DNA from: a bacterium
Lineage (GTDB): Bacteria; Vulcanimicrobiota; Vulcanimicrobiia; Vulcanimicrobiales; Vulcanimicrobiaceae
Direction: 5' to 3'
DNA: 53,665 nucleotides
Assembly (NCBI GenBank): GCA_021832345.1
Contig: JAKBKY010000010.1
Coordinates: 1-53,665 of the forward strand
Part shown: piece after piece, positions 1,764 through 32,104 of the stretch
Position numbering within the stretch: the stretch's first letter is position 1
Layout of the letters: every line of letters starts with the position of its first letter
Program-made: the position numbers and the translations under genes
Notes under the pieces: model-generated
Told to the model about the DNA's origin: nothing
The model's database searches: none
What the model saw: the letters and a program-made list of their open reading frames with translations, nothing else

Positions 1764-1799
1764 GGGGGACGATGGTAGCGTTCAGAACTAAAAAAACAG

Positions 1800-3926
1800 T
1801 CACAATTCGGCGGACGTCAGCGGACGGCACAGATCGTTAAACTGCGGCGACGGCGCGACGCCGAGTTCCCGTTCGAGCGCACGGCGGCAGTCGTCGTAGA
1901 GCCGGCGGGCAGCCTGGAGCTGGCCTGCGAGCAGGTGCGCTTGGATCGCAAGCCCATAGCCGGTCTCATCGGTGACGTCGAGGCGGCGCAGATCGGCGGC
2001 GATCCCAAGTACCGCAGCGATGTCGCCTCGGGCAAGAAAGGCCTCACCGAGCCGGACGCTCGCCTCGCGCCGCATGTTCTCCAGCAAGATGCCGTAGGGC
2101 GCAAACCACTCGCGCTTGGCGAGCGCCGCGGGAATCGGCCCCTTTAGGCCGGGCCAGATTTGCTCCAAGCGTACCACGTCGCCGGCGCGCAGGGCGGCGT
2201 GAAGCTCGTCGACGTCGCGGCTCACCCCGGTGCCGAGCGCATAGCGACGACGCGACGCCGGGAGGGTGTCCGGCGGCAGTTTCTTGCGCAGGCGCGAGAT
2301 CGTCGTCTGCAGGGTGCTGGCGGCCGCACGCGGCTCGTGGTCGGGCCAGAGCGTCGCTGCGACCTGGGCGCTCGGCAGGGGATCCGGCTGGAGCGCGAGG
2401 TAAGCGAGCAGTTCGATCTCGCGATCGGTGAGCGCGATGGGAGTGCCGTCGACGGTGAGCGTCGCACGGTAGACCGATACGCCGATGCGTCCCGGCGTTA
2501 CCGCAGGGTGGGCGGCGGCCTCCTCGCCGCTCGGCGGCGCGGCCGGGCGCAGGCAGAGTTGGATCTCCTGGATCTTTCCAAGGCCATCGCGCTCGGCGTG
2601 GACGGCAGCGGTCAGGCGCCGCGTGGCGCCGGCGGGGTTTTCAAGCGGGATCTCGATCGCCGGGATGTCGCCGTTACGCGAGGCGATCGCCGCACGCGCC
2701 ACCGCGCGAAACGTGCCGTGCTGCGAGCCTCCCAGTACGCTTGCGATGCGTTTGCCGATGAGGTGTTGGGCAGGCATCCCGAAGAGCGTGCCGGCGTTGG
2801 TTGTGGCAAAGAGGATTCGCCCGTCGCGGCCGATACGCACGATCACCTCCGAGAGCCCGGATACGACTCGGTGCAAGATGCGTTCGATACGAAGCCGGTC
2901 GCCGACCGCATACGCGAGCAGGATGCACTCGCTTCCCGTCCCGATCTCTGCGCCGTAATCGGCCCAGCCCCAATGGGCGTGCGTCACATACTGCCAAAGC
3001 GCGATGCTGACGAAGAAAAAGAGCACGGGGTAGCTCAGCAGAAAGTACGCAGCCGGGCGATAGCCGTCGCGTGCGCGCCCGATCGTTGCGGGGATGACGA
3101 GCACGGTCACGCAGCACATGAGCACCACCGGGACGAGCCCGTGTGGATCGAGCATGACGCCGAAGATCCAATGCAGCAGCACTGCCGCCGGGAGATAGAG
3201 GAGGAAGCCGACGATGGTCGCCAGCAGCAGCCGGTCGATTCTGCGCGCATAGACGGCGGTCTGCAGGAACGAACGCGCGAACTGCGCGTAGAGCGCGATG
3301 TTCGGCCCCCAGAGGGCGAACTCAATATCGCCTTCGTGCCAGGGCGTAAATGGCCATGCGAGCGGCCACAGAAAGTCGCTGCGAAAGAGTTGGTAGACGA
3401 TCAGCGAGCAGAGGTAGGCCAGATACCATCCGATGAAGGGCTCGCGCGACATGGCAAAGAGCACCAGCATCATCAGAACGGTGCCGCCCAGCAGGCCGAA
3501 GTACAGAAAGAGCGGGACGTGCGTGGGTTCGTTGCCGAGGACCAGGCCTAAGGGGGCGGCGCGAATGCACCCGTGGACGCCGCCCGTCGATTCCGCCAGC
3601 ACGTAGAGCGGTCCACCGGCCCACGACGGCGGCACCGTGAGTGCGGGAGGCCCGCTGTAGAACACGTGTCCGTCGCCGGGGATCTCGTCCTCGAACGCGC
3701 TCATCTGCCAGCCGGTCGCGGAGCGCCGGTAGGCGTATGCCGCCTGACTACCCGCAGGCGCGATGATCTCCCAGGCGCCGCGACGAGGCGCGCCCTTCAG
3801 CTCGATCTTGGAGAGAACGCGACGATCACCCTGCGCTGCAAAGACGCGAACCGCACCGGCGCACGGTGCAAGCGGCGGACGCGACGAGGGTCCGGCGAGA
3901 GCCAAAACGAGAGCGGCTGCGAGCAT
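1800..3926 (-). CDS. Membrane-bound sensor-regulator: 7TM (DISM-like) + PAS + SARP winged helix + BTAD
   Basis: The 708-residue protein combines four parts. A signal peptide (about 1-28) and an extracytoplasmic domain (30-135) come first. About seven hydrophobic segments follow (137-345: VPLFLYFGLLGGTVLMML through CILLAYAVGDRL), resembling 7TMR-DISM receptors. A PAS domain spans about 355-470 (VIVRIGRDGRILFATTNAG, LFGMPAQHLIGKRI). The C-terminus is a SARP-type winged helix (about 480-565, IALTDREIELLAYLAL, SRLRKKLPPD) plus a BTAD domain (about 575-705). The DNA-binding module therefore seems fixed to the membrane and controlled directly by external and PAS signals, without a phosphorelay. The small BTAD regulator lies immediately downstream. 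The ligand and promoters bound are unknown. Confidence 0.8.
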   Translation of the reverse strand: MLAAALVLALAGPSSRPPLAPCAGAVRVFAAQGDRRVLSKIELKGAPRRGAWEIIAPAGSQAAYAYRRSATGWQMSAFEDEIPGDGHVFYSGPPALTVPPSWAGGPLYVLAESTGGVHGCIRAAPLGLVLGNEPTHVPLFLYFGLLGGTVLMMLVLFAMSREPFIGWYLAYLCSLIVYQLFRSDFLWPLAWPFTPWHEGDIEFALWGPNIALYAQFARSFLQTAVYARRIDRLLLATIVGFLLYLPAAVLLHWIFGVMLDPHGLVPVVLMCCVTVLVIPATIGRARDGYRPAAYFLLSYPVLFFFVSIALWQYVTHAHWGWADYGAEIGTGSECILLAYAVGDRLRIERILHRVVSGLSEVIVRIGRDGRILFATTNAGTLFGMPAQHLIGKRIASVLGGSQHGTFRAVARAAIASRNGDIPAIEIPLENPAGATRRLTAAVHAERDGLGKIQEIQLCLRPAAPPSGEEAAAHPAVTPGRIGVSVYRATLTVDGTPIALTDREIELLAYLALQPDPLPSAQVAATLWPDHEPRAAASTLQTTISRLRKKLPPDTLPASRRRYALGTGVSRDVDELHAALRAGDVVRLEQIWPGLKGPIPAALAKREWFAPYGILLENMRREASVRLGEAFLARGDIAAVLGIAADLRRLDVTDETGYGLAIQAHLLAGQLQAARRLYDDCRRALERELGVAPSPQFNDLCRPLTSAEL

Positions 3927-4016
3927 CGGCGGCGGTTCCCCATTCGGGGTTCTTCAAGCCGCTCCCGTCGTCGCGGTAAGGGAGATGTAAGATCGGTGGC
4001 GGCGCCGCGGCGGGCG

Positions 4017-5159
4017 TCAATCCTTGCCGGCGTACGGGCTGATGACCAGCGCCGGCACGCGTATGCCGTATCCGAGCGCGTCGACCGTGGGCGGAACGAC
4101 ATGATCGTAGAAGCCGCCCCAGTCGTCCCACGCCAGGAAGATCGCCGTGGAGTTCCAATCCGGACTACGCATCACGGCATTGATGATTCTCGTCACGTAG
4201 GATTGGCCCGTGCTCACCAGCGCCGGTGGATGTTCGCTGTCGACGTTATCGGGTAGTACCCATGAAACCGCAGGCAACGTCCCGGCTCTTGCCGCAGCGA
4301 AGAACGCGCGTTGCGCCTGGATGTTCGCCATCTGATGATCCTGCCGAACGTCGGTGAACCCAGGCAACACGTTCCAGATCGGCGGGACGCCGGGTTTCGA
4401 GAACGTCTTCTTGCCTCCAAAGCGTCCTTTGGCGCCATGATCGAGATACCATCGCCAGCTCACGTGATGCGCGTTCAGCAGATAGGTCAAGTCCGTCCAC
4501 GCGAACGGGGTAGGGTCTCTCGCCGTGCGGTTCCGAGGATCCACTGCGCTCGTGCAGCTCATCGGATCGTTGACTTTGCTGCAGTCTGCCGACCATGCCG
4601 ACACCAGGTAGAGATGCGAGGGAAAGCTCCACGAATGCACCGACTCAAACATGTGATCTTGAAGCACAAAGTCGTGCGCGTACGCCCAATAGTTCGGGAT
4701 GTCCGAACCGGTATGATAGCCCATGACGTCGGTGGTTCCGGCCGCCATACACGCAGGATTCGTGAGATTGCGGCATCTGCCGCGAGCGCGCTCGGCTTGT
4801 GCGATAAAGCCGTTCATCTTTCCGCCGTTCGTATCGGCGATACTATTCACATTGTTGTGCGGGCCGCCGCGTTGCCTATCGGCATGATCCGGATAGGGCT
4901 TCACGCACGCGTGCGTACGAGGATCCGGCACGCACACGGTAGGGACTCCGTGTTGCATCGGGATACCGTCCGCACCAGGGTAGGTGCCGAAGTACGAATC
5001 GAACGAACGATTCTCCTGAAAGATCACAACCACGTGGCGAATCTTATGGATGCCGGTTGCAGCGCGTGAAGGGGCCCCGGAAACGGGGCCGATGGCCAGT
5101 GCGAGCAGAGAGAGTGTGAGCAGCAGCGCCAGCGCGACTTTTACAGATGGCTTCAGCAT
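4017..5159 (-). CDS. Secreted phosphoesterase family protein (phospholipase C / acid phosphatase type), short C-terminus
   Basis: The N-terminus is a signal peptide ([20 protein letters not shown]) followed by [20 protein letters not shown], the hallmark of the phosphoesterase family (PF04185) that includes phospholipase C and AcpA-like acid phosphatases. The motifs [31 protein letters not shown] and [18 protein letters not shown] also fit. I chose the ATG at 5159 over the in-frame ATG at 5174 because GAGGGA lies 7 nt upstream of it. The protein stops right after [13 protein letters not shown]. Family members normally continue for another stretch beginning with a YxxHT-like segment, so this copy looks truncated or is a short variant. 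The enzyme would act outside the cytoplasm on phosphate esters. Confidence 0.75.
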
Positions 5160-5174
5160 TCTCGATTCCCTCAT

Positions 5175-9859: not shown

Positions 9860-10219
9860 TTAGCGGCGACGGCCGCCTTTCTTTGCTGCAACCTTCTTCA
9901 CGGCAGTCTTTTTCGCTGCAGGTTTCTTCGTTGCGCCCTTCTTCACGCCGCCGACGGCCTCTTTCAGGGATTTGCCGGCAACGAACGCCGGAACCTTACG
10001 TGCGGCGATCTTAATTTTCTCGCCGGTCTTCGGGTTGCGGCCTTCGCGCGCCTTACGCGCACGCACAACAAAGCTGCCGAACGGCGTCAACGCGACGCGA
10101 TCGCCCTTCTGCAGCGCGGTCTTAATCTCGTCCAAGACGAGGTCGACGATCTCGCCTGCCTGGCGCTTCGACAGCTCGGCCTCAGAGGCGATGGAATCGA
10201 TCAGATCAGCTTTCGTCAA
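9860..10219 (-). CDS. hupB: HU-type DNA-binding protein with Lys/Ala-rich tail
   Basis: Residues 1-90 are a complete HU fold (MTKADLIDSIASEAELSKRQAG, LTPFGSFVVRARKAREGRNPKTG with the DNA-intercalating proline, KIAARKVPAFVAGKSLK). Residues 92-119 form a basic tail of KKPAAKKTAVKK-like repeats, as in actinobacterial HupB. It compacts and bends nucleoid DNA. The start codon is TTG, supported by AAGGAG 8 nt upstream and by the universal HU N-terminus. The tail may add non-specific DNA affinity. Confidence 0.92.
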   Translation of the reverse strand: MTKADLIDSIASEAELSKRQAGEIVDLVLDEIKTALQKGDRVALTPFGSFVVRARKAREGRNPKTGEKIKIAARKVPAFVAGKSLKEAVGGVKKGATKKPAAKKTAVKKVAAKKGGRRR

Positions 10220-10332
10220 AATACGTTCTCCTTAAGCGGCGCATGGACAGGTGGGTTTCGACGGACTGGCCGCCGGGGTGGTTATACGCAAGCACGGCGC
10301 GTGCTCCTTCCCGTTCCCAGGGCGAAAATGCC

Positions 10333-10767
10333 TTATTTTATGAGGATTTCTCGGGCAGCTCGTAGTGCCAGGAGGTAGGAGGAGACACCGAAGCCGCTCA
10401 CGGTGCCGACGCATGCGGCTGCCGTCACGCTCACCCGGCGGAATGGCTCACGTCCAGCGATATTTGAGAGGTGCGCTTCGATGACCGGCAAGCCGATCGA
10501 CGAAACAGCATCGGCGATCGCGTACGAATAATGCGCGTACGCCCCCGGGTTGAGGATGACGGCATCGTAGACCCCGCGCGCGGTGTGCAAGGCATCGATG
10601 ATCGCTCCCTCGGCATTATATTGCCTGCAATCGACGGCCAGCGCGAGCTCGACCGCCAGCAGGGCGATGCGCTCATCCAACTGAGCAAGCGTCCCCGTGC
10701 CGTAGACTGCCGGTTCGCGCTCCCCGAGCAAGTTCAAGTTTGGCCCATGGATCACGAGAATGCGCAT
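10333..10767 (-). CDS. aroQ: Type II 3-dehydroquinate dehydratase
   Basis: The 144-residue protein matches AroQ: MRILVIHGPNLNLLGEREP at the N-terminus, AVYG with the catalytic tyrosine on the mobile loop, NAEGAIIDALH, NPGAYAHYSYAIADAV with the catalytic histidine, and EAHLSNIAGREPFRR. It converts 3-dehydroquinate to 3-dehydroshikimate in the shikimate pathway. The ATG at 10767 gives the canonical start. An upstream ATG adds nine unrelated residues. The last base of the stop is 113 bp before the HU start codon on the same strand. Confidence 0.92.
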   Translation of the reverse strand: MRILVIHGPNLNLLGEREPAVYGTGTLAQLDERIALLAVELALAVDCRQYNAEGAIIDALHTARGVYDAVILNPGAYAHYSYAIADAVSSIGLPVIEAHLSNIAGREPFRRVSVTAAACVGTVSGFGVSSYLLALRAAREILIK

Positions 10768-10848
10768 GGCTCCCAGGCTTCGGGATGCATCCAATCGCGA
10801 CCTCGACGGCGGCGCTGTCGGCGACGGGGCTCACGGGGACCGGGCGCG

Positions 10849-11082
10849 CTACTCCGCGGGGAAGAGCGTACTGAGCGGCGGCGGATCCCGATACGGCTGG
10901 ATGCGTTGCCAATAGGCCTCGCGCAACGCAAGCCCATCGTTGTAGTACCACCAGCCGCACTCGCAACGAATCGGGCGTTCGTGCGCTTGCGGATACGCGT
11001 AGATGCGTCCGCACCGCTTACAGGTGAACGTGCGGCCCAAGATCGGCTCAGCGGCAGTATAGGTGATCGCAGTATCCGCCAT
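10849..11082 (-). CDS. Small zinc-ribbon-like protein
   Basis: This 77-residue protein has two Cys pairs, FTCKRCGRIYAYPQ and IRCECGWWYYND, which should bind one zinc as a minimal zinc ribbon. No further domain is recognised. The ATG at 11082 has AAAGGGA 5 nt upstream. A GTG at 11097 directly follows the tyrS stop codon and is less likely. Because it lies about 15 bp after tyrS on the same strand, it is probably co-transcribed with it. Function unknown. Confidence 0.65.
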   Translation of the reverse strand: MADTAITYTAAEPILGRTFTCKRCGRIYAYPQAHERPIRCECGWWYYNDGLALREAYWQRIQPYRDPPPLSTLFPAE

Positions 11083-11097
11083 GGGAATCCCTTTCAC

Positions 11098-12279
11098 TTA
11101 CGGAAGAACGCGGACGAACTTTCGAGACCCGACCGAAAGCACCGCCGGAGCATCGGTGCTCCAGATGGCCTTGGGGTCGTCTATCACGATACCATCGACG
11201 CGCACCCCCTTCCCCGAGATTAGTCGCTCCGCCGCCCTGCGACTCTCCGCGAAACCGGCCAGAACGAGCACCTCTGCAACCCGCTGCGCCGGGCCCCGAG
11301 CCAGTTCCGGTACCCCATCGGTGGGGAGTTCCTTGCGCTGAACGGTGCGCTCGAAGTACTCCCGCGCGCCGCGCGCCGCCTCGGAGCCGTGATAGCGAGC
11401 GACGATCTCTTGGGCCAAGCGTTTCTTCTCGCCGATGGCGTCGACCCGACCGGCGGCCAGTGCTGCCGCCAACGCGTCACACTGCGCCCGTGGGCGAAAT
11501 GCAGCAAGCCTCGCGTAGGAGGGGATGAGCGCGTCGGGCAGCGACATCAGCTTGCCGAACTGCATCTGCGGGGGCTCAGCGATGCCCACGTAGTTGCCCG
11601 TGGACTTACTCATCTTCTTCTCGCCGTCGAGACCGATGAGCAACGGCACCGTCGCACAGATTTGGGGGAGTTGTCCCATACGCTCCTGGTAGTGCCGGCC
11701 GAGCAACAGGTTGAAAAGCTGATCGCTACCGCCAAGTTCAAGATCGGCTTCGATCGCCACCGAATCGTACGCCTGGGCGACCGGATAGAGAAACTCATGC
11801 AAGGAGATCGCTGTTCCGCCGGCATAGCGGGCGGCGAAATCGTTGCGCTCCAGCATCTGCGCGACGGTCGTATGCGATAACAGCTTGATCAGCTCCGAGA
11901 AGCCGAGGCGATCGAGCCATTCGGAGTTGTAGCGAATACGGACGCGATCGAGGTCAAGAACCTTACTCGCCTGTTCGCGGTAGGTATGCATATTGGCCTC
12001 GATCTCTTCGTCGCTTAACTGCGGACGAAGCGCGTTGCGACCGCTCGGGTCACCGATCTTCGCAGTGAAATCCCCGATGATCAGGGTCACGTCGTGCCCC
12101 GATTCTGCAAAGCGCTGCAGCTTCTCCAAGACCACCATGAATCCCAGATGCAGATCCGGACTGGTTGGGTCAACACCCAGCTTCACACGAAGCGGGCGCC
12201 CGAGTCGAAGCCGCTCGAGGAACTCCCCGACCGACTCTACCCGTTCAAATCCATCTAAGAGCGCATCTGCTGCCGTCAT
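11098..12279 (-). CDS. tyrS: Tyrosyl-tRNA synthetase
   Basis: The 393-residue class I synthetase has the HIGH-type motif (DPTSPDLHLGFMVVLEK), the ATP-binding GDFTAKIGDPSGRN, the KMSKS loop (KKMSKSTGNYVG) and a C-terminal S4-like RNA-binding domain (AERLISGKGVRVDG). It charges tRNA-Tyr. The layout is of the TyrRS type with LHLGF in place of HIGH. It lies 87 bp downstream of the universal stress protein gene on the same strand. A hairpin with AGCGCC/GGCGCT arms in that gap lacks a T-run, so read-through from the upstream complex operon is possible. Confidence 0.95.
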   Translation of the reverse strand: MTAADALLDGFERVESVGEFLERLRLGRPLRVKLGVDPTSPDLHLGFMVVLEKLQRFAESGHDVTLIIGDFTAKIGDPSGRNALRPQLSDEEIEANMHTYREQASKVLDLDRVRIRYNSEWLDRLGFSELIKLLSHTTVAQMLERNDFAARYAGGTAISLHEFLYPVAQAYDSVAIEADLELGGSDQLFNLLLGRHYQERMGQLPQICATVPLLIGLDGEKKMSKSTGNYVGIAEPPQMQFGKLMSLPDALIPSYARLAAFRPRAQCDALAAALAAGRVDAIGEKKRLAQEIVARYHGSEAARGAREYFERTVQRKELPTDGVPELARGPAQRVAEVLVLAGFAESRRAAERLISGKGVRVDGIVIDDPKAIWSTDAPAVLSVGSRKFVRVLP

Positions 12280-20666: not shown

Positions 20667-21470
20667 ATGCGATCCTTCGACCGCGACGAGGCCGAGTGCC
20701 GACATCGAAGAGTTGGTCGCCTCTATCTCGCCAAGAACCGCGCTTCCATGCAGACGGGTACGAAGGACGCCTCGAGGATGGAGTTCCCCCGCAAACTGCC
20801 GAAACATCGACTGATGGTTCCTGACCATGCGATCATCGAAAGTTTGTTCGCGGAGTTGCGTGACGCCGAGCGAGTCGCCGGAGAGCGCCTCGAAGCGGGA
20901 TGCGCCGACGATGCGAAAGCGATCGAGACGTTCTTCCGGCAACCGCTCGAAAGCGCGCGCCGCGAGGCAATCGATGCCATCTCCGGAATGGGAAAGAATC
21001 TTGAGGCCGATCTCGCGGCCCATCTGCGCCGGGAAGCATTCATACGCATCGCGAGCAGCTTCGCCGAGCAAATTCGTGCGAATGCCGGGATGCGGGCGCG
21101 CGCGCGCTTCAAACGATACGCGCAGGAGCTCGCGAATGCTGAAGCGCGAATCGCCGAAGCGATCGCGGCGTCACGCACGACACGGGCTAAACGCCTGTTC
21201 CCGCGCATGTTCACGATCCACTACCTGGATTTCGACGATCTCCATTTCCCGGACGCTCCGAGCGACGACTCGGAGGAAGAAATCGAGGCCTGGATCGAGC
21301 GCTTGCGACGATGCGTCCGCGACCTCCTGACGGCGCAGGTCGATTCCGAACGCGAGCATGTGCTCGCATGCGGAATCGAACGCCTTGGAATCGTCAGCGC
21401 GCGCATGCATCTCGCCCTGCATGCACATCAGCGCGCGGCTGGGCTACGAGCAACGAAGATGCGGTCGTAG
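20667..21470 (+). CDS. Hypothetical helical protein
   Basis: The 267-residue frame has normal protein composition after about residue 37: alternating charged helices (IESLFAELRDAERVAGERLEAG; RREAFIRIASSFAEQIRANAG) and an acidic segment (DDLHFPDAPSDDSEEEIEAWIERL). I recognise no family, signal peptide or membrane segment. The start is uncertain. ATGs at 20667, 20748 and 20778 are all possible and none has a strong ribosome site. It lies between two fluoride-riboswitch operons, divergent from one, and its 3' end overlaps the convergent MutS-like gene by 43 bp. A part in the same stress response is possible but unproven. Confidence 0.55.
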   Translation: MRSFDRDEAECRHRRVGRLYLAKNRASMQTGTKDASRMEFPRKLPKHRLMVPDHAIIESLFAELRDAERVAGERLEAGCADDAKAIETFFRQPLESARREAIDAISGMGKNLEADLAAHLRREAFIRIASSFAEQIRANAGMRARARFKRYAQELANAEARIAEAIAASRTTRAKRLFPRMFTIHYLDFDDLHFPDAPSDDSEEEIEAWIERLRRCVRDLLTAQVDSEREHVLACGIERLGIVSARMHLALHAHQRAAGLRATKMRS

Positions 21471-22942
21471 ATATCTTCCCCGTAACTGGTCGCCAACGGC
21501 TCGCCTTCCAACAGTTTGAATCTCCGGTCGGAATCTCCGGCGTGCCGCTGAGCACGCAAGAACAGCATCGGTACGACGTGCTGTTCCCACAACCCGGACG
21601 CAAACTCGTACAGATGGGTCACGAAGACAACCCGCGCTCCGCACTCCACGAGCCCGGTCACGATCTGGCGAGCTATTTCCGAGCCTTCTCGATCGTTAGT
21701 AGCGGCAAACGACTCGTTAAAAAGGAGCAGCGAGTGCGGCTTGACGTTCTCGACCAGGTCGCTCATTCTACGAAGTTCTTCGTCGAACTTTCCGCTCTCC
21801 ATCGTCACGTCTTCTTCGCGCTTGTAGTGCGTGAAGAGCCCATCACACAGGCTGGCGCTGTACGATTCGGCCGGTACGAACATCCCACTCTGCATCATCA
21901 ACTGCGATAATCCGACGCTTCGCAGGAACGTTGACTTTCCGCCTTGGTTGGCACCGGTCACGACGATCAGCGCCTTACCGTCGGCGCACAGGTCATTGCC
22001 GCTCACCCTTTCCTCGGTTACGAGCGCCAAGGACGCATCATAGAGCCCCACGCAATGCCGGATCCCGGCGCTTGCCTCCATCGGAGCGGGGAAACACACG
22101 GGTTCACCCTTGCCCGTAAGCCGTTCGTGCAAGTTCATGCAGCCGACGTAAAACGCAGTCTCCGCTCGCAGGCTGATAAAAAAAGCCAAGATGTGGTCGG
22201 CAGACTGGGCAAGCGCAGCGGCGACGAGATTGACTCCGCGGTCCGCGATCTCCGAGAGGGCTCGAGCCCCGCTTTCGTCTCGTGGATGCACATGGTACGT
22301 ATAACCGGCCGGCTCGGGATCGAAGATCCGCTCGAGCCAACTTCGTCTATGATCGGGGGCATCACGCAAAACGTACCCGGCACCGCGGTTCCCTTCTCCG
22401 AGGCCGGCGCTCATGAGGATTCCGCCACGGAACTCCACGCGCCGCAAGTGATCGGCAACACCGGCTAAATAATCATCGGGAAGCTCCGCCACGAGCATCG
22501 AGAAGAGCCTGGTGAAGCCTTCAGATTCGAAGCCGGCCGCGTACCGGTCCGCGATCGCCCGCAGCCTCCGCAACGCGCCCAAGAACATTTTCAGCACGTC
22601 GGTCGATCGGCGCAGGATCGAACTCGGATGCCGGCTCCTTAGACCCCAAAAATTCTTCCGTTCGTCTTCGATCGCTTGCGTCGCGATATCGTAGATATCC
22701 CTGACCACGGACGAGTTAGCCAAGCAGTCTCTCAGCACGTCCTGCCGGTAGCGTACGGCATCCACGTCGCGGACGCCGACGATGAGCCTCGTTTTTGCGG
22801 CCTCGAACACGTGGGGATCATCATTCGCCATGGCCGTGAAGAGGGCGTTCAAGCCAAGGTCTTCGACGAGGTTATCCGCGTTCGGCGGCAATGCCTCTTC
22901 AAGGTCGGCATCACGATCGCGATGCAATAGGAACGCCTTCAT
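21428..22942 (-). CDS. MutS-like ATPase lacking the mismatch-recognition domain (second copy)
   Basis: The 504-residue protein has a helical lever/clamp-like N-terminal part and a C-terminal MutS ATPase domain with Walker A TGANQGGKSTF (about residues 329-339), SGKFDEELRRMSDLV and FVTHLYEFA. There is no N-terminal mismatch-binding domain or FxE motif, so it is not a canonical mismatch sensor. Walker B reads LLLFNESF with Asn where MutS has the Mg-binding Asp. The neighbour paralogue shows the same change. It overlaps that gene by 4 bp. It would use ATP to change conformation on an unknown nucleic acid or protein partner. Confidence 0.85.
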   Translation of the reverse strand: MKAFLLHRDRDADLEEALPPNADNLVEDLGLNALFTAMANDDPHVFEAAKTRLIVGVRDVDAVRYRQDVLRDCLANSSVVRDIYDIATQAIEDERKNFWGLRSRHPSSILRRSTDVLKMFLGALRRLRAIADRYAAGFESEGFTRLFSMLVAELPDDYLAGVADHLRRVEFRGGILMSAGLGEGNRGAGYVLRDAPDHRRSWLERIFDPEPAGYTYHVHPRDESGARALSEIADRGVNLVAAALAQSADHILAFFISLRAETAFYVGCMNLHERLTGKGEPVCFPAPMEASAGIRHCVGLYDASLALVTEERVSGNDLCADGKALIVVTGANQGGKSTFLRSVGLSQLMMQSGMFVPAESYSASLCDGLFTHYKREEDVTMESGKFDEELRRMSDLVENVKPHSLLLFNESFAATNDREGSEIARQIVTGLVECGARVVFVTHLYEFASGLWEQHVVPMLFLRAQRHAGDSDRRFKLLEGEPLATSYGEDIYDRIFVARSPAAR

Positions 22943-24486
22943 CCGGGGCCGGCTCCGCTCAGCCGCTCCTTCAAGCGCCGGTATGTGAGCCCGTATTTTT
23001 CCGCAAGTGACACGGCATAGGCAAGGCCGTCTGCTGGTTTTCGCTCGAGCTTATAGGTTCGTACATCGGGATTCCGTGGATCGACGAGGCTGACCATGCT
23101 CACCGTCTTCTCGCTCAAAGAAGCCAGCTCGTCAATGAACGTTACGAACACGCACAATCCGTCGAGCCGCAGTATCTGCGCCATGATCTTCCGCCCCAGC
23201 ACTCCGGCATCGCGTGCAGTCGTGGAGGTAAATATCTCGTTTATGATGATGATGCTTGCCGAAGTGGCTCGCGCGAGAATGTCGTGGAGCCGGATGAGGT
23301 CGTCCTCGAGCTTGCCTCGAAGTGATCCGGGATCTTCCTGTCTCTCAAAATGTGAAAACATCGCGTCGAAGAGGAACGTGCGCGCTCTGCGTCCGGCGAC
23401 CGGAAATCCTAGGGACGCCAAGTACTGCATCTGTCCGAACGTGCGGGCAAACGTCGTCTTCCCGCCTTGGTTGGGGCCCGACACCACGAAGACACGCTCC
23501 GGTCCGCTCAAGTGGAAATCGTTGCAAACGACCGGCGTTCCCGTAGCGATGAGCTTTTGCGCGAGAGCGAAATCGAAGCAGTCCTCGCCGATGACGTCCT
23601 TGGTTTCGCTGGATACCTGCGGATAGCACGTCTGCAGCCCGGCGCGCTCGAAAATCTGTACATACTCCGCATAGGCGAGGTAGAGCTGTGCTTCGCGATC
23701 GAACTGATGAATCGTACTATCGATGAACGTCGCATGCAATCGGTAGAAACGATCGAGCTCGGAGAACACGCCGGGGTAGAGCAGCGCAACGAACTCCAAG
23801 ACCTTGGCTTCGACGTGATTCATCCCGATCCGCTCTGGGAACGCGACGAGATACTCTTTCGCCGAGCCTTGCTTGAATCGCGAGAACGTGTCCTGTATCG
23901 ACGTAACGTAATCGCTTTCGCCGGAATAGTTTCGTACCGTGATGCTACTACCGTTGACGAGAACCAAATACTCCACGTTTGCAAGGTTCGACAATAGTTC
24001 TTTGACGTCATCATGGAGCGTCTTGAACGATTCGGACTGCAGATACGCTGCAAGATACGCTCCGAACGCCGAAAGACCGGTCGACTCCACATCGTCACCG
24101 GCTAAATCATCCGTGAGGCGTATTACCGCCTCGCAGTAGATGCGCGCGCCGTCCACGAAGTGACGTTCCTTCTCGTGCACGTAATAGAGCTTCTCTACCG
24201 TATGAAGTTCCGCGCGCACAGTACGCATGCTCCGTGCAAACATTGCAATTGCTTCAGCGATCCGTTCCTTTCGAACGTCGCGCATCACCTCCTGGCGGTA
24301 GCCGACGGCTTCGGGACCGTTCAGCGGCGCGCGAAGGAACGGCTTTAGATCGTATTCCTCTCTTCCTGAGACGATCGCATCGAGAACCTGGTCGAGGTTC
24401 AAATCGATAAAAAACGGCGGAGATTCCAGCGTATCGATCGGCGGCCGATCACCGGCGTGGCGATACAATATACTATGAAACTTCAT
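22939..24486 (-). CDS. MutS-like ATPase lacking the mismatch-recognition domain (first copy)
   Basis: From the ATG at 24486 the protein has 515 residues. The C-terminal ATPase shows Walker A VVSGPNQGGKTTFAR (about 334-348), SLRGKLEDDLIRLHDIL and a Walker B of SIIIINEIFTSTTARD with Asn for Asp. The N-terminal 320 residues are helical (MutS domain III-like) and include PPFFIDLNLDQVLDAI and PVVCNDFHL. A longer frame upstream lies inside the GTPase gene and is rejected. The gene is sandwiched between the GTPase (7 bp gap) and its paralogue (4 bp overlap), so the three proteins probably act together. Confidence 0.85.
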   Translation of the reverse strand: MKFHSILYRHAGDRPPIDTLESPPFFIDLNLDQVLDAIVSGREEYDLKPFLRAPLNGPEAVGYRQEVMRDVRKERIAEAIAMFARSMRTVRAELHTVEKLYYVHEKERHFVDGARIYCEAVIRLTDDLAGDDVESTGLSAFGAYLAAYLQSESFKTLHDDVKELLSNLANVEYLVLVNGSSITVRNYSGESDYVTSIQDTFSRFKQGSAKEYLVAFPERIGMNHVEAKVLEFVALLYPGVFSELDRFYRLHATFIDSTIHQFDREAQLYLAYAEYVQIFERAGLQTCYPQVSSETKDVIGEDCFDFALAQKLIATGTPVVCNDFHLSGPERVFVVSGPNQGGKTTFARTFGQMQYLASLGFPVAGRRARTFLFDAMFSHFERQEDPGSLRGKLEDDLIRLHDILARATSASIIIINEIFTSTTARDAGVLGRKIMAQILRLDGLCVFVTFIDELASLSEKTVSMVSLVDPRNPDVRTYKLERKPADGLAYAVSLAEKYGLTYRRLKERLSGAGPG

Positions 24487-24493
24487 AGCGCGA

Positions 24494-26173
24494 TCAGCAT
24501 GAGTGCGCCGGCACATCGAACTCTGCGCTGAGAGCTTCCAGGCGACGCGCAGTTTGGTTGAGAAGCTCCACCTCAAGATCGGGGCTTTCGCAGTCGCCTT
24601 GCGCGACCCGAGAAAAGGCCGCCAGCACGGATGCATGAGCGGCATCCAGGCCCTCTTTGAGCACTCTTCGCGATGCCGCTACCCAAGCGTCGCTTTCGGT
24701 ACGCACGGCATAATGAAGGCGCCCACGCGCAGCGTCGAGTTCGCTTGCGAGCATACGCTCATAATAGCTGCGTCGCAGGCGTGTGCGCAAAACGGATGGT
24801 AAGGCCGCGGTGAGCGCCCCCTGGATCAACTCCAGGCCGGTCGTCGGTTCATCGGCAAGCACACGGGAGTGGCGCAGGATGCTCAAAGCCGCAGGCTCCT
24901 CGTCAACCGACGGCATGGCAATGCCGAACGCTTGGCAACCGGCGGCAAACATCGCCCTTTCCAACTCTGCGAGCTTGACGCCATAGCTGACGGCAAATGT
25001 GCCCAGCCCGCGCTCAAGTTCGCTTGAGACCTCCTGACGCCACGAACGGCCTGTTTCAAGGACGTAGCTACGCGCGCGCTCGTAGCCGTGTTCTGCGGAC
25101 GGATCCTCGGCGGCAGCCTTCGCTACGGCAGACGTTTTCGCGAGGGTGGCACGATAACGCTCATCCAGCCGATCCAATATCCCAGTCCGCATCGATCGCG
25201 CGTCATCGGCAACCAAGAGGCCAAGTGCGCGCAGGCGTTCATCGAGATCATGGGCAACCTGCTCGACGGCTTGCCGACGGCGCTCCCGTTCCTGAGCCGG
25301 CAGCGACGCCGCCACTTGTCGCATGGCAAGCAACGCACGCAAACGGTCGATAATGACGCGTACGCGCCGCTGACCCGACTCTTCCCGGACTCTAGACCCG
25401 TGCAGCGCAAGGAAAGTGTCCAGCGCACTGCCAAACGCTTGGAAGTTCTCGTCGACTTCCCCGTTCTGCCGTGCGGCACACGCCGCAGCGGCGGATAGCG
25501 GCGCGATGTCGGGAGCCTTACCAAGCTCTTCTGCCAGAGCCGACTGCGTAAACGCCATCAGTTCCGGCAGGGCCGATCCCGCGAGATCCATTTTGTTGAA
25601 TACCACGAAGAGTCGACTGGCCGAGCCCACCACTTCATGTACGAACTCAAGTTCGTCACGCCCGACGGGAGGTTCCGGGCCAACCACGAGAATCGCAACA
25701 TCGGCTTGGGCGAGCGCTTGGAGCGCACTGGCAGAGTTATGATCGAAGGTCGATCCAATCCCCGGCGTATCTACAAGCGCAACGTTCCGCAGCCTCGCCG
25801 TAGGAAGCCAAATATCGACTTGTGCAATCTGTCGGCAATTTTTCGGGTTTTCTGATTCACTGACATACCGACCCACATCATCGAGTGGAATGCCCTGCTC
25901 GCTACCATCAAACATGCGAATGCGCACCCGGATGTCGCCGTAGTGTACTGCGGTAACGACACCGGTGACCGGCAACACGCCAACCGGTAAGACATCGCGT
26001 TCGACGAGCGCATTGATGAACGTGCTCTTGCCGCGCTTAAAACGCCCTACGACGAGCACGTTCGTTTCGCGATGGTCGAACTGCTCCCGCAAGACCCGAA
26101 CCCGCAAAGCGAGCTCCGGCTCTCCAACAGATATGGCAAGCTCTTCGAGCTGCCCCAGCCACGCGACATCCAT
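24494..26173 (-). CDS. Dynamin-family GTPase
   Basis: The 559-residue protein carries all four GTPase motifs: G1 GRFKRGKSTFINAL, a G2-region threonine in GVLPVTGVVTAV, G3 LVDTPGIGSTFDH and G4 FNKMD. A long helical region follows, as in bacterial dynamin-like proteins, which remodel or protect membranes. I see no clear membrane-spanning segment. The ATG at 26173 has AGGGA 9 nt upstream, and that SD can be hidden by the riboswitch leader. A start further upstream would translate the aptamer itself. It is the first gene of a three-gene operon with two MutS-like ATPases. Confidence 0.87.
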   Translation of the reverse strand: MDVAWLGQLEELAISVGEPELALRVRVLREQFDHRETNVLVVGRFKRGKSTFINALVERDVLPVGVLPVTGVVTAVHYGDIRVRIRMFDGSEQGIPLDDVGRYVSESENPKNCRQIAQVDIWLPTARLRNVALVDTPGIGSTFDHNSASALQALAQADVAILVVGPEPPVGRDELEFVHEVVGSASRLFVVFNKMDLAGSALPELMAFTQSALAEELGKAPDIAPLSAAAACAARQNGEVDENFQAFGSALDTFLALHGSRVREESGQRRVRVIIDRLRALLAMRQVAASLPAQERERRRQAVEQVAHDLDERLRALGLLVADDARSMRTGILDRLDERYRATLAKTSAVAKAAAEDPSAEHGYERARSYVLETGRSWRQEVSSELERGLGTFAVSYGVKLAELERAMFAAGCQAFGIAMPSVDEEPAALSILRHSRVLADEPTTGLELIQGALTAALPSVLRTRLRRSYYERMLASELDAARGRLHYAVRTESDAWVAASRRVLKEGLDAAHASVLAAFSRVAQGDCESPDLEVELLNQTARRLEALSAEFDVPAHSC

Positions 26174-27005: not shown

Positions 27006-29045
27006 TTACTCTCTTGCGTGATGCGCCCGGGCAGTGGCCGGGCCTCCGGTGTAACCGGTCGCGATGTAGAAAAGTACTCCATTCGCAACCGGATCGTAGG
27101 TCGGGCTTATCTGATGCGGGTCCGTCGATGATGACGGGGCTGCGAGCAGCTTCGTGATGTCGACGACCGCCACGTACGAACGTGTGTAGTTGAAGATCGC
27201 ACCGAACAGATCCGAGGAACCCGGGATATAGAACGTCATCGCGACGTGCGGATCGTCTGCCGACTGGAATGGATTCCCATCCGGCGTGTTCGGCATGGCG
27301 GGGATGAACATCCATGTCGTGGGCGTGAACGGTGCGGTGAGCGGCGCACTCGGGAGTTGGATCACCCCAACGCAATCCGGAGTTGAGAACTCTCCGCTGA
27401 GGAACGCGAGGTGGGTGGTCGAGTCGATCGCAAACGCCGTGGATCTGCAGCCCGCATCGCTCGTGGTAGTAGTGGCATTTGCGTTCGCGTCGGTAAACGT
27501 TCCCGCGGTGCCGGCTGCCGGCGGCGGTGTACTCAGAATCGCGTTCGCCGAGTCGAGCGGAACGAAGCTGTCGTATGTCGGGCTCTCATCGACGGCCATT
27601 CCGATGTTCGTCGAGGAATCGACTGCTCCGCCGTCCCAGTCAGATGAGACGCTCGCACCCGTCAGCGTGTACCAGGTCCGGCTCGCCACGTCAACGAGGT
27701 CGACCTCGGTGTACGTCGGAGACCAGATCTGGTCCGTGGCCGAATTGTACCCGAAGTTCTCCGAAATCGGCGCAGGAATAGTCGCGATCACCTGCTTGCC
27801 GCTCGCGGTGCCCGGATCGTAGAACTCGTATCCGTTCGCCGTCGAGATGATGATCGCGTTATCTTTGCCATCCCATGCGACGCCGCAGATGTAGCAGTAT
27901 GCGCCGCTGAAGCTGACTGTGCTGGCGCTGGCGTCGGTCGTGATCGAACGAACGAACGTCGGCGTGCCCGAGGTGAGGTCCACGACGTTGATGATACCTT
28001 GGGGCCCGCTCGGTGCGTTGTACGTGATGCAGTATGCGAAGATGCCGTAGCTGGGGCCAGGGCCTGGACCTATGGCACATGCGTCCGGGGCCGGTGTGAG
28101 CACCAACGGTGACGGTGACGGCGCCGGAGCGGCGGCGGCAATTGGTTGCAGGGCACGCGCGGCGCTGATCGTACCACTCGATGCGATTTGGATCTGCAGC
28201 AAACCGCCTGCGCTCGGAACCTCGGCGTACGTGGTCCCACCAATGGTGACGACGCCGACGGCGCCGCTGCCGTTCTGGCTGTTGGCGGGCGTGAGCTTCG
28301 TGGTGGCGGAGGTCGACGTACCGGTGATCGTGGCGGTGATCGTAGCGCTTGAAATGGCTGCGCCGCTGTACGTGACAGTGACCGCCGCCCCAGGCGCGCT
28401 CACCGTCGTGCTTGAGAGCGCGGCATTGGTCGAATCGCTCGTCGAGAGCGCGATCGTCGGCGTGTAGTTTCCGGGCCCGACGATCGTGTCGCCGTCCGCA
28501 TCCATTGCAGTGACCGTGAGCGGAATCGTCGCGCTCACGCCGACCGCCGGTGCGGGGTTGGCAAGACTGACCGCAACGGACGCCACGACGCCGTTCAATA
28601 TCACCGGAACGTTGTTCGTGGTTCCGGCATTGATGGTCGCAGTGACTGTGCCGGTCGAGAGTTGATTGCCGGCGCCGTTTGTCTTGTCAAACATCGTCAG
28701 CGTGAACGTATCGCTGCCGATCGGTGCAGGAACCGATGCCGTGCACGTCAGCGTTCCGCTGCTGCTCGAACAATTCGGGGAGCTCGGTGTGAGATTTACC
28801 GTGGTCGGCGTCGACACGCCGCTGACCGTGATCGTCACGGACTGCGTTGCCGCGGAGATGTAGTTGGGGTTGGGGTTGGTCGAACTTGTCGTCGCGGCTT
28901 TCGGCACCTTGATGATGAAGTTTGCGATACCCATGCCGTGGGCTGCCGGCACCGGACCGGAGGGCGTGATGCCTTGCCCGTGTTGGGCACAGGCAGCCAG
29001 GGCAAAGGCTAGGACAACTGCGCCCGCAATAGCTAATCTTTTCAT
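27006..29045 (-). CDS. Large lipoprotein with Ig-like N-terminus and propeller-like C-terminus
   Basis: The 679-residue protein has a lipoprotein signal peptide with lipobox LAAC (Cys19). Residues 40-290 are Ser/Thr-rich and resemble bacterial Ig-like beta-sandwich repeats (SVTITVSGVSTPTTVNL, VAVSLANPAPAVGVSATIPLTV). The C-terminal half has repeated short strands such as GVAWDGKDNAIIISTANGYEFYDP and AFAIDSTTHLAFLSGEFSTPDC, suggestive of a beta-propeller or surface-binding domain. It would be anchored to the outer leaflet or outer membrane. Function unknown. It starts immediately after the small lipoprotein gene on the same strand. Confidence 0.75.
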   Translation of the reverse strand: MKRLAIAGAVVLAFALAACAQHGQGITPSGPVPAAHGMGIANFIIKVPKAATTSSTNPNPNYISAATQSVTITVSGVSTPTTVNLTPSSPNCSSSSGTLTCTASVPAPIGSDTFTLTMFDKTNGAGNQLSTGTVTATINAGTTNNVPVILNGVVASVAVSLANPAPAVGVSATIPLTVTAMDADGDTIVGPGNYTPTIALSTSDSTNAALSSTTVSAPGAAVTVTYSGAAISSATITATITGTSTSATTKLTPANSQNGSGAVGVVTIGGTTYAEVPSAGGLLQIQIASSGTISAARALQPIAAAAPAPSPSPLVLTPAPDACAIGPGPGPSYGIFAYCITYNAPSGPQGIINVVDLTSGTPTFVRSITTDASASTVSFSGAYCYICGVAWDGKDNAIIISTANGYEFYDPGTASGKQVIATIPAPISENFGYNSATDQIWSPTYTEVDLVDVASRTWYTLTGASVSSDWDGGAVDSSTNIGMAVDESPTYDSFVPLDSANAILSTPPPAAGTAGTFTDANANATTTTSDAGCRSTAFAIDSTTHLAFLSGEFSTPDCVGVIQLPSAPLTAPFTPTTWMFIPAMPNTPDGNPFQSADDPHVAMTFYIPGSSDLFGAIFNYTRSYVAVVDITKLLAAPSSSTDPHQISPTYDPVANGVLFYIATGYTGGPATARAHHARE

Positions 29046-29414
29046 TTATTTCACCCCTTGCGGTTGCAGATTGGTGTTAGTTACGGTGACGCCGACGCTC
29101 GCGGAGGTTGCTCCGCTGGCGGTGGCGGTAACCGTGGCGGTTCCACTGCCTACGGCAGTTACGCTAAACGAACCAGCCGTGGAACCCGCCGCCACCGTCG
29201 CGACGGCCGTGTTCGAACTGGTTGCCGTTATCCCCGTCGCTCCGCTAGCGGTAAAGGTCTGGACTTGGCCGTTCTGTGCGAATGAGAGCGTCGCCGGGCT
29301 GGTGGTGATTATCGGAAGCGGAGGACGGGTCCCACCGCCACCGCCACCGCTACCGCTACAAGCAGCGAACCCTAGCACCATCACAAAAGCACAAATAGAT
29401 CGCAAGTGTCTCAT
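29046..29414 (-). CDS. Small lipoprotein with Big2-like Ig domain
   Basis: The 122-residue protein has a lipobox (LGFAAC, Cys19), a Gly-rich linker and one bacterial Ig-like domain (IITTSPATLSFAQNGQVQTFTASGA ... VSVTV-type strands: SFSVTAVGSGTATVTATASG). AAAGGAG lies 10 nt before the ATG. Its stop abuts the start of the large lipoprotein with no gap, so the two are expressed together and probably form one surface assembly. Confidence 0.75.
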   Translation of the reverse strand: MRHLRSICAFVMVLGFAACSGSGGGGGGTRPPLPIITTSPATLSFAQNGQVQTFTASGATGITATSSNTAVATVAAGSTAGSFSVTAVGSGTATVTATASGATSASVGVTVTNTNLQPQGVK

Positions 29415-29773
29415 AGTGCATACTCTCCTTTAGGAGCTCGTGTGCGATATTGCGTGTTGTGTCGCTCTCGGAGGGGCATGGGACGGGCGCCAAGGCCGCG
29501 TCATGTGACGCGAGAATGCGTACCGTTGCCAGTATCGCATCCCTGCAGTGTGGTTGCGTATAAAGCTCGGGTCATCGTTGGACACCCCTCAAGCGCAACT
29601 TCTCAGGCGGCGGAAGTATACCAGCGGGGTCTTACGTAAGCCTTACAACGCTTGGGGCACTGCTAACGTCTTGTGGCGAAAGGGTGGCGGCGGGCGGCGC
29701 TCTACTTACCCGGCGCGGCGCAAAGCGGCCGGCACCTACGCGTACGGACCGTTCAATGCGTGTGCAGCTTGCG
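29415..29773. other. Intergenic region upstream of the lipoprotein operon
   Basis: This lies between the mutS2 stop and the lipoprotein start. No gene is supported. A small palindrome, CTTACGTAAG, is present near 29630-29640, and CTCCT/AGGAG flank each other at the lipoprotein SD. Neither a convincing sigma-70 promoter nor a terminator with a T-run is visible. Confidence 0.5.
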
Positions 29774-32104
29774 CTATGCCTCTCGCAGATCGACGATCGT
29801 GACGCCGCTGCCGCCTTCATCAGCGTTGCCGAAACGGAGAGTCTGTACGGCGGGATGCGCGCGCAGATACTCTTGCAAACCTCGTCCAAGCAACCCCGTT
29901 CCCTTACCGTGAATGAGTCGTAACGGAGACTGGCCGGCAACCTGCGCTTCGTCGAGCCAGCGTTCGACGAGCGGCTCGGCCTCAACGTATCGCATTCCGC
30001 GCACGTCGAGTTCCATCGCAAGGCCGGTACTCGCGGCCAGCCGTGCACTGCCGCCCTCCACGCGACTCTGCGCTCGGCCTTTAGAAGGGCGGAGCTGGAG
30101 ATCCGCTCGCGGGACGACGGTCTTCATCGAGCCAATCGCCACCAGAATACTCTCGCCGTAGTCCTCTACCATCACCCCGTCCTGACGCAAGGATTGCACC
30201 CAGACGTGATCGCCGGGCTGAAGCGCTGCGCCGGTATCGGGTGCAGGTTGCGAGCGCACCAGGCCCGCCTCGCGCCGAAGGTCATCGAGGACGCGGCCGA
30301 ACGCCGCGCTCTGACCGCGCGTGACCCGCGCTTTGGCTGCCTCGGGGGAGCGACGCCCTAACTCTTCAACGAACGCCCTCAGAGCACGGCGCAACTCCTC
30401 TTCAGCGCGCCCGGCAAATGCTTCCCGTTCGCCCTCAAATGCCTGCGCCCGTACCGACAGCGCCCGCGCGCGCTCCTCAAACTGCTGACGTTCCTGTTGT
30501 AGGCGATCCCGCTCCTGCGCGAGTTCGGCGCTACGCGTCGCCAAATCCGCAAGCGCACTCTCATAATCGCGTTCACGCACGCCAAGGAGCTCCGCCGCCC
30601 GCCGCAAGATTTCAACGGGAATCCCCAAACGCTGCGCCAGAGGAAAGGCCAAGGATTGGCCTGGCGCACCGATCTCCAACGAATATGTCGGTTCAAACGT
30701 ATCGGCGTTAAAGCGTACGCTCGCGTTCGTGATGCCGGTTTGCGCGTGCGCAAAGAGTTTGAGTTCGGTCGCATGGGTCGTCACGACGCCGCAAGCGTGT
30801 ACCGCAAGCAACCGCTCGAGGATCGCCGTCGCAAGGGCCGTTCCCGCACCGGGCTCCGTCCCGCCTCCAATCTCATCGACCAGAATCAAGGTCCGCTCGT
30901 CGGCGAGCTGGAGCATCTCGCGCATGCGCACCATGTGCGCCGAGAAGGTCGACGTGTTCTCGGCAATGGACTGATCGTCGCCGATATCAGCGAGAACATG
31001 GTCAAAGCGGCCGATTCGCGTCGCCGGACCGGCCGGCAGATGCAGACCCGCATAGGCCATCGCAACGAAAAGTCCGACCATCTTCAGCGCGACGCTCTTG
31101 CCTCCCATGTTGGGGCCGCTGATGACGAGCAATCGAGTTGGATCGGCCAAGGCCAGCGACTGTGGGATCGCCCGCGCAGCGAGCAAGGGATGACGCCCCC
31201 GATCGATAACGATCTCGGCGCCATCGACCAGCTCCGGCGCCCCGGCGTCCATCGCACTCGCAAGTTCTGCTCGTGCCGCAACCAGATCGACCCGCGCCAA
31301 CCCCTCGACGTTGAGGTCAATGGCAGCCGCCCGGCTACCGACGAGTTGGGAGAGTTCCGCGAGAATGCGTTCGGCCTCGCGCTCTTCAGCGGCACGCAGC
31401 GAGCGCACGCGGTTGTTCACCTCCAAAGCTGCCAAGGGTTCCACGAAGAGCGTCTGACCACTGGAACTCGTATCGTGAACGATACCTGGAAACTCCCCAC
31501 CGAACTCCGCTTTGATCGGGATCACGAATCGCCCCTCGCGAATCGTCACCACGGTATCTTGAATCGCTTTAGCGTGTCGTGCTGAGCGCATGATCGCGCT
31601 CACACGGTCACGCGCTTCAGACGACGCGCGAGCGATATCGCGACGAATACGTCCAAGTGCGGCAGAGGCGCGATCTTGAAGCGTCCCCCGCTCGTCGAAG
31701 GCGTCGATCAGGCGGCGCCCGAGCGCCGACAAGTCGCTATACCCCGCGATCAACTCCTGCAAAATGGGATCCTGTGCAAGCTGGATCGCGCGGCGAGCCG
31801 CGGCGGCTGCCGCCAATGCGTCTCCGATGGATCGCAGATCGTTGCCGGAGAGTATGCCGCCTCGGGCAGCCGTCTGCGTCAGAGAAGCGGTCTCCACGGC
31901 CGCTAGCAGGTGGAGGTCGTGCGCCGCCATCGCGTCTCGTAACGCCGATGTCTGCGCCTGCGCGCGACGCACTGCCTCAAAGTCATCCAGCGGCAGCAGT
32001 GCCAAGGCTTTCGCGCGTCCGCGCTGCGTCCGTGTCCGCGCCACAACGCGCTCTACGATCGCAGCGAAGTCAAGAACCTCCAGCGTCCGCTCGTCCGCGA
32101 GCAC
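29774..32104 (-). CDS. mutS2: MutS2 endonuclease/ATPase with Smr domain
   Basis: The 776-residue protein has the MutS2 layout: N-terminal core (LADERTLEVLDFAAIVERV), ATPase with Walker A ISGPNMGGKSVALK, Walker B LILVDEIGGGTEPGAG and VVTTHATELK, a long coiled coil (ELAQERDRLQQERQQFEERARAL) and a C-terminal Smr nuclease domain (MELDVRGMRYVEAEPLVERWLDEA, LIHGKGTGLLGRGLQEYL). It acts in suppressing recombination or rescuing stalled ribosomes. Unlike the two MutS-like proteins at 21-24 kb it has the normal Walker B Asp. It follows gatB on the same strand. Confidence 0.95.
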   Translation of the reverse strand: MLADERTLEVLDFAAIVERVVARTRTQRGRAKALALLPLDDFEAVRRAQAQTSALRDAMAAHDLHLLAAVETASLTQTAARGGILSGNDLRSIGDALAAAAAARRAIQLAQDPILQELIAGYSDLSALGRRLIDAFDERGTLQDRASAALGRIRRDIARASSEARDRVSAIMRSARHAKAIQDTVVTIREGRFVIPIKAEFGGEFPGIVHDTSSSGQTLFVEPLAALEVNNRVRSLRAAEEREAERILAELSQLVGSRAAAIDLNVEGLARVDLVAARAELASAMDAGAPELVDGAEIVIDRGRHPLLAARAIPQSLALADPTRLLVISGPNMGGKSVALKMVGLFVAMAYAGLHLPAGPATRIGRFDHVLADIGDDQSIAENTSTFSAHMVRMREMLQLADERTLILVDEIGGGTEPGAGTALATAILERLLAVHACGVVTTHATELKLFAHAQTGITNASVRFNADTFEPTYSLEIGAPGQSLAFPLAQRLGIPVEILRRAAELLGVRERDYESALADLATRSAELAQERDRLQQERQQFEERARALSVRAQAFEGEREAFAGRAEEELRRALRAFVEELGRRSPEAAKARVTRGQSAAFGRVLDDLRREAGLVRSQPAPDTGAALQPGDHVWVQSLRQDGVMVEDYGESILVAIGSMKTVVPRADLQLRPSKGRAQSRVEGGSARLAASTGLAMELDVRGMRYVEAEPLVERWLDEAQVAGQSPLRLIHGKGTGLLGRGLQEYLRAHPAVQTLRFGNADEGGSGVTIVDLREA

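Follow-up and report, generated by a model that had tools for sequence, protein, structure and literature searches.

The window, by which we mean the whole stretch of 53,665 nucleotides analysed here, carries a gene for a protein (7TM-SARP) in which a signal peptide, an ectodomain, a 7TMR-DISM domain, a PAS domain, a winged helix and a BTAD follow one another in one chain (Table 1). This arrangement had been proposed in a preliminary description of the same DNA, and it was borne out by Pfam, by an AlphaFold model and by the uninterrupted frame of 708 amino acids. The domain search recovered four of these parts, each Pfam match exceeding its gathering score: 7TMR-DISM_7TM at residues 140-344 (2.2e-21; 77.1 bits against a cut-off of 29), PAS_4 at 358-451 (1.9e-5), Trans_reg_C at 494-553 (2.9e-8) and BTAD at 595-699 (7.3e-9). 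PF07696, the DISMED-type extracellular domain, had no Pfam match in the protein. The second, soluble BTAD protein that had been placed alongside is also real by Pfam; it is the next gene downstream and is referred to here as SARP2. At the contig edge (14-475, + strand), the window begins with near-identical tandem units of ~120 bp that encode TPR-like repeats and in which a second frame is also open. Farther in, three MutS domain V proteins are encoded within 11 kb (21428-24645 and 29774-32104, - strand), two of them next to each other and to a dynamin-like gene, the third carrying a Smr domain at its C-terminus.

Table 1. Positions in the window of the 7TM-SARP gene, its parts, its partner gene and the predicted promoter elements and targets.
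Feature	Position	Strand	Basis and remarks
7TM-SARP gene	1800..3926	-	Open reading frame; 708 aa, ATG start, 0 internal stops
Ectodomain, residues ~27-125	3552..3848	-	Short beta-sandwich in model; pLDDT 63.5, low confidence
Seven transmembrane helices, residues 134-356	2859..3527	-	Pfam and AlphaFold
PAS domain, residues ~357-462	2541..2858	-	Pfam, AlphaFold, Foldseek
Winged-helix DNA-binding domain, residues 480-570	2217..2489	-	Pfam, Foldseek, residue comparison with AfsR
BTAD, residues 571-708	1803..2216	-	Pfam, AlphaFold, Foldseek
SARP2, soluble SARP, 250 aa	1011..1763	-	Pfam; next gene downstream of 7TM-SARP
SARP-type direct-repeat box GTGACTG tttt TTTAGTT	1786..1803	-	Before SARP2; overlaps 7TM-SARP stop codon
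-10-like TACCAT	1772..1777	-	8 bp past SARP2 box
SARP box GTAAGGG agat GTAAGAT	3976..3993	+	Upstream of 7TM-SARP; no -10 on + side, unlike relatives
SARP-type promoter GTAAGGC ttac GTAAGAC cccgctgg TATACT	29615..29646	-	Relaxed scan; before two lipoprotein genes
Predicted target, 122-aa lipoprotein	29046..29414	-	Ig-like (weak Big_2), lipobox ..GFAAC; downstream of 29615-29646 promoter
Predicted target, 679-aa lipoprotein	27006..29045	-	Lipobox ..ALAAC; downstream of 29615-29646 promoter

The AlphaFold model of the chain is of moderate quality (mean pLDDT 70.8, pTM 0.44). It starts with a hydrophobic helix and a beta-rich ectodomain, continues with exactly seven long helices (134-160, 163-182, 200-221, 228-255, 264-286, 291-315 and 320-356), the last of which is a long one that is prolonged toward the PAS domain, and ends with a PAS fold, a wHTH and an all-helical BTAD. 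When the ectodomain was folded alone, which gave a weak model, its top fold match was the periplasmic domain of RetS (3jyb; probability 0.99, TM 0.55, E 0.03). The PAS domain aligned by Foldseek to many PAS/LOV structures, and the C-terminal half matched EmbR and AfsR, the latter in transcription initiation complexes (best E 3e-9 to 2e-8). The AfsR residues that read bases, T88 and R92 (PMC10936776), are retained as T541 and R545, as are most of its backbone contacts (W527, P532, S544, R547 and K548). Of the inner segments, the linker before the winged helix, residues 463-479, has the lowest order (pLDDT <50); it also evolves fast and varies in length. With such properties it could be a place where the SARP half is cut off on a signal, to act thereafter as a soluble SARP; we regard such regulated release as unlikely, since no cleavage motif is conserved at this linker in the alignment of 7TM-SARP homologues, and a DNA-binding module that stays tethered would equally need a disordered one.

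Homologues were sought in 149 genomes of the phylum, i.e., the window's own genome (G000) and its Candidatus Eremiobacterota relatives. Full-length homologues were found in nine of the ten genomes of a second genus, g12 (53-58% identity), the tenth being 61% complete, and a more distant one (34-36%) in a further genome, G055; G000 itself apart, the remainder of the 149 had none. A scan of 84,980 species, one genome per species, returned only the same set, all Candidatus Eremiobacterota or MAG bacteria, its reach being limited by the use of two short conserved peptide patterns; a direct protein search of genome contigs with the window's 7TM-SARP gave no match. A frameshift, or a boundary between two genes, that would split the membrane part from the DNA-binding part had been named at the outset as the finding that would undo the single-chain reading; it was looked for and is absent, as the same in-frame junction recurs in the nine g12 genomes and in G055. 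Moreover, each of the three parts compared (7TM, wHTH and BTAD) has its codon differences concentrated at third positions, i.e., the protein is under purifying selection on either side of the junction. The idea of a non-functional fusion, or of an annotation artefact joining two genes, found nothing in its favour and is refuted by this conservation in ten other genomes; we give it practically no credence. It had also been stated that 7TMR-DISM proteins usually end in kinases, GGDEF or similar modules; in this phylum, all ten of the others sampled carry GGDEF at their ends, and G000 has no further 7TMR-DISM protein. 7TM-SARP would therefore appear to have arisen by an exchange of effector in a lineage where 7TM-GGDEF proteins abound.

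SARP2 lies directly downstream of 7TM-SARP in eight of the nine g12 genomes; the contig of the remaining one breaks off within 7TM-SARP. The two recognition helices differ, being LQTTISRLRKK in 7TM-SARP and LYVALHRIRRR in SARP2. In a tree of SARP modules, the backbone of which is weak in places, 7TM-SARP and SARP2 formed separate clades (99/95 and 100/100, respectively), SARP2 standing on the side of the STAND-type SARPs; a simple tandem duplication is thus an improbable origin of the two genes. The homologue in G055 (L077, C10, ~9867-12032) has no SARP2 alongside and no box, and its recognition helix, LYANLSRLRRK, is nearer to that of SARP2 than to those of the other 7TM-SARPs. G000 also encodes two STAND-type SARPs (L005, 2519-5371, on contig C5; L006, 2402-4669, on C10), large proteins in which a STAND/LuxR-like ATPase-type region at the N-terminus precedes a wHTH-BTAD at the C-terminus; this order is the reverse of that in AfsR, and similar frames of ~950 amino acids are common in the phylum. 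In another genome (G031:C81:80028-83075; L019), the SARP query aligned to two distinct segments of a frame of 1310 amino acids, which is possibly a double-SARP protein.

On its other side, 7TM-SARP of g12 is divergent from a gene for an NHL-propeller lipoprotein, which is followed by a gene for a secreted protein with a PKD domain. In the window, this place is taken by a gene for a PF04185 phosphoesterase (4017-5174, - strand), which ends directly after ..VISPYAGKD, with the profile covered only to 330 of 356 positions and the SARP box (3976-3993) ~20 bp away. The phosphoesterase may thus be truncated, suggesting a rearrangement breakpoint where the relatives have the divergent lipoprotein gene. 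As a conserved partner of 7TM-SARP the phosphoesterase was rejected, since it is not syntenic in relatives.

SARP promoters consist of direct repeats with an 11-bp period, the 3' repeat lying 8 bp from the -10 (PMC10936776). Alignment of the region between 7TM-SARP and the divergent lipoprotein gene in eight g12 genomes revealed such an element, CTAAGGG-gaat-GTAAGAT, conserved upstream of 7TM-SARP, and every g12 site reads as repeat, 4 nt, repeat, 8 nt and TACGCT. In the window the box has been kept even though the divergent lipoprotein gene has been lost; it might act in autoregulation, or else be left over from that gene. The g12 lipoprotein ortholog (55-57% identity) has been relocated to contig 7 in G000, where it is preceded by GTAAGGA-cgat-GTAAGAT-8 nt-TATCGT. 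On contig 2, GTAAGGG-cgat-GTAAGGT-8 nt-TACAGT stands ~285 bp before the first gene of an operon for three secreted proteins, including a propeller. A box of a second type, GTGACCG-N4-GTAAGnn-8 nt-TAnnnT, precedes SARP2 and encloses the 7TM-SARP stop codon; a pattern script matched it in five relatives and the window, and three other relatives, with the 4-nt spacer TTCT, fit by eye. In the window its first repeat and -10 are retained, and its second repeat, intact in relatives, is degenerate. The published layout, including the 8-bp spacing, is thus reproduced exactly at the predicted sites before the g12 lipoprotein genes, at C7, at C2, at 29.6 kb in the window and before SARP2. A fifth SARP box of G000 (C11:20497-20514; L095 1998-2015) has ~25 identical bases with the C2 box, no -10 at 8 bp and no clear downstream gene, and is possibly a relic or belongs to a small gene or RNA. 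No Rfam match to an RNA element was found at the target loci.

The pattern STAAGG-N5-GTAAGR-N9-TANNNT was then searched without mismatch in the 149 genomes, with the reversed pattern as a control. It matched three times in G000, once in each of the nine 7TM-SARP-bearing g12 genomes, once in G124 and nowhere in the rest, G055 included, while the reversed pattern had no match in any of the 149. Thus, box and -10 occurred in 10/10 genomes counted with the 7TM-SARP/SARP2 pair as against 1/139 without it, the one being chance-like. Three matches in one genome, given a background of 1 in 139 genomes, have a Poisson probability of ~6e-8; counted by genus, which allows for relatedness, Fisher's p was 0.001. 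A caveat to these tests is that the pattern was refined with the C7 and C2 sites already known. Since the boxes of the nine g12 genomes amount to a single orthologous promoter, the independent support comes mainly from the three unlinked sites of G000. The 11-bp period was found in 5/9 TAAGG-N(1-12)-GTAAGR sites in G000 versus 0/23 in five genomes without the pair, and it is to be noted that the C2 and C11 sites may not be independent, in view of their common bases. The presence of the two STAND-type SARPs in G000 raises the alternative that the boxes belong to one of these, at C5 or C10, and that 7TM-SARP has other targets. This is very unlikely, because dozens of genomes of the phylum have STAND-type SARPs and yet no box, and the box tracks the 7TM-SARP/SARP2 pair.

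We propose, with a probability of about two in three, that 7TM-SARP is a one-component transmembrane activator that works with the soluble SARP to switch on genes for envelope lipoproteins. The ectodomain and the seven-helix domain would sense a signal in the envelope or outside, which would travel along the extended helix 7 and through the PAS domain before reaching the C-terminal SARP module; held at the membrane, this module would bind DNA, probably in dimeric form, at the 11-bp direct repeats. One SARP-type promoter would fire the next gene, SARP2, and the two regulators, in cascade or together, would then activate the promoters of secreted and lipoprotein genes, in which a TAAGG-N5-GTAAGR box lies 8 bp before a TAnnnT -10. 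What the sequences show is the single chain and its conservation, the conserved gene pair, the layout of the promoters, the co-occurrence of boxes and pair among genomes, and that the genes downstream encode secreted proteins; we infer the signal, the dimerisation, the activation and the assignment of each SARP to a box. Several observations were counted against this circuit: neither SARP2 nor a box accompanies the 7TM-SARP of G055; the box beside 7TM-SARP in the window has no -10 on the + side and the second SARP2 repeat is degenerate; the C11 box has neither a -10 nor a clear gene and the C2 box is ~285 bp from its first gene; and the structural model is moderate in its pTM.

In a simple cascade, the action of 7TM-SARP would be confined to the promoter of SARP2, and the lipoprotein promoters would answer to SARP2 and no other regulator of the two. 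This would be a sub-case of this circuit rather than a contradiction of it, and is a realistic prospect, if somewhat short of even. It is favoured by the difference between the box types in the first repeat (GTGACCG versus C/GTAAGGG), by that between the two recognition helices, and by the lack of both SARP2 and the lipoprotein box in G055; however, the downstream GTAAG repeat is common to both box types, which leaves joint binding just as possible. In AfsR, two SARP protomers sit side by side on the repeats and form a new docking place for sigma region 4 (PMC10936776). The membrane SARP and the soluble SARP might form a mixed pair that occupies one direct repeat and jointly recruits RNA polymerase, one protomer held in the membrane and the other free. 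Such a promoter could be active only close to the membrane and only once the receptor had been signalled; this is a quite unlikely arrangement.

In comparison with known systems, the protein resembles 7TMR-DISM (PF07695) proteins such as RetS in its signal peptide, its seven-helix domain and the intracellular signalling module behind helix 7, and perhaps in its beta-sandwich ectodomain (a weak match), but the effector there is a kinase or GGDEF, whereas here it is PAS-wHTH-BTAD. Proteins of the ChiS family, already published, likewise join a seven-helix 7TMR-DISM receptor and a C-terminal DNA-binding domain in one chain; they have been described in Proteobacteria, and their DNA-binding domain is unrelated and has no BTAD, in contrast to the PAS and the OmpR-type wHTH with BTAD found here. 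With AfsR and EmbR the protein shares the wHTH-BTAD fold and the DNA-contact residues, and the predicted boxes share the 11-bp repeats 8 bp from the -10; AfsR, however, is soluble, as SARPs normally are, and has the SARP module at its N-terminus, whereas the module here is C-terminal and predicted to be tethered to the membrane. ToxR and CadC are also membrane-embedded one-component regulators with an OmpR-type wHTH, but theirs is N-terminal and accompanied by a single helix, as opposed to seven helices, a C-terminal wHTH and an additional BTAD. Some Actinobacteria have LysM/BTAD proteins with membrane helices, and therefore membrane anchoring of a BTAD may not by itself be new. Since it combines a membrane region and a DNA-binding domain in one chain, 7TM-SARP falls under the published definition of transmembrane transcription regulators, of which a survey of 9,673 genomes counted 50,302; more than two membrane helices were present in 27% of them (PMC10269533). 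The earlier designation, an uncommon type of one-component transmembrane transcription activator, fits the domains, the conservation and the promoters, although membrane-bound regulators are common as a class and activation is a presumption. The conserved pairing with SARP2, the SARP-type boxes and the lipoprotein targets go beyond that earlier description. No description of a SARP or BTAD protein with a 7TM receptor was found in the literature searched, which lay outside the 2003 list of 7TMR-DISM domains and the supplementary tables of PMC10269533.

SARPs have been studied as soluble switches of antibiotic clusters. The present system would add a seven-helix receptor as a direct input to a SARP, and would extend the SARP promoter grammar to a phylum of uncultured bacteria and to envelope lipoproteins. 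With a defined receptor, partner gene and set of predicted promoters, it lends itself to direct tests in a laboratory host, where one could address how a regulator held in the membrane reaches unlinked promoters. If the proposed circuit is true, a signal from outside could be read from the membrane directly onto DNA.
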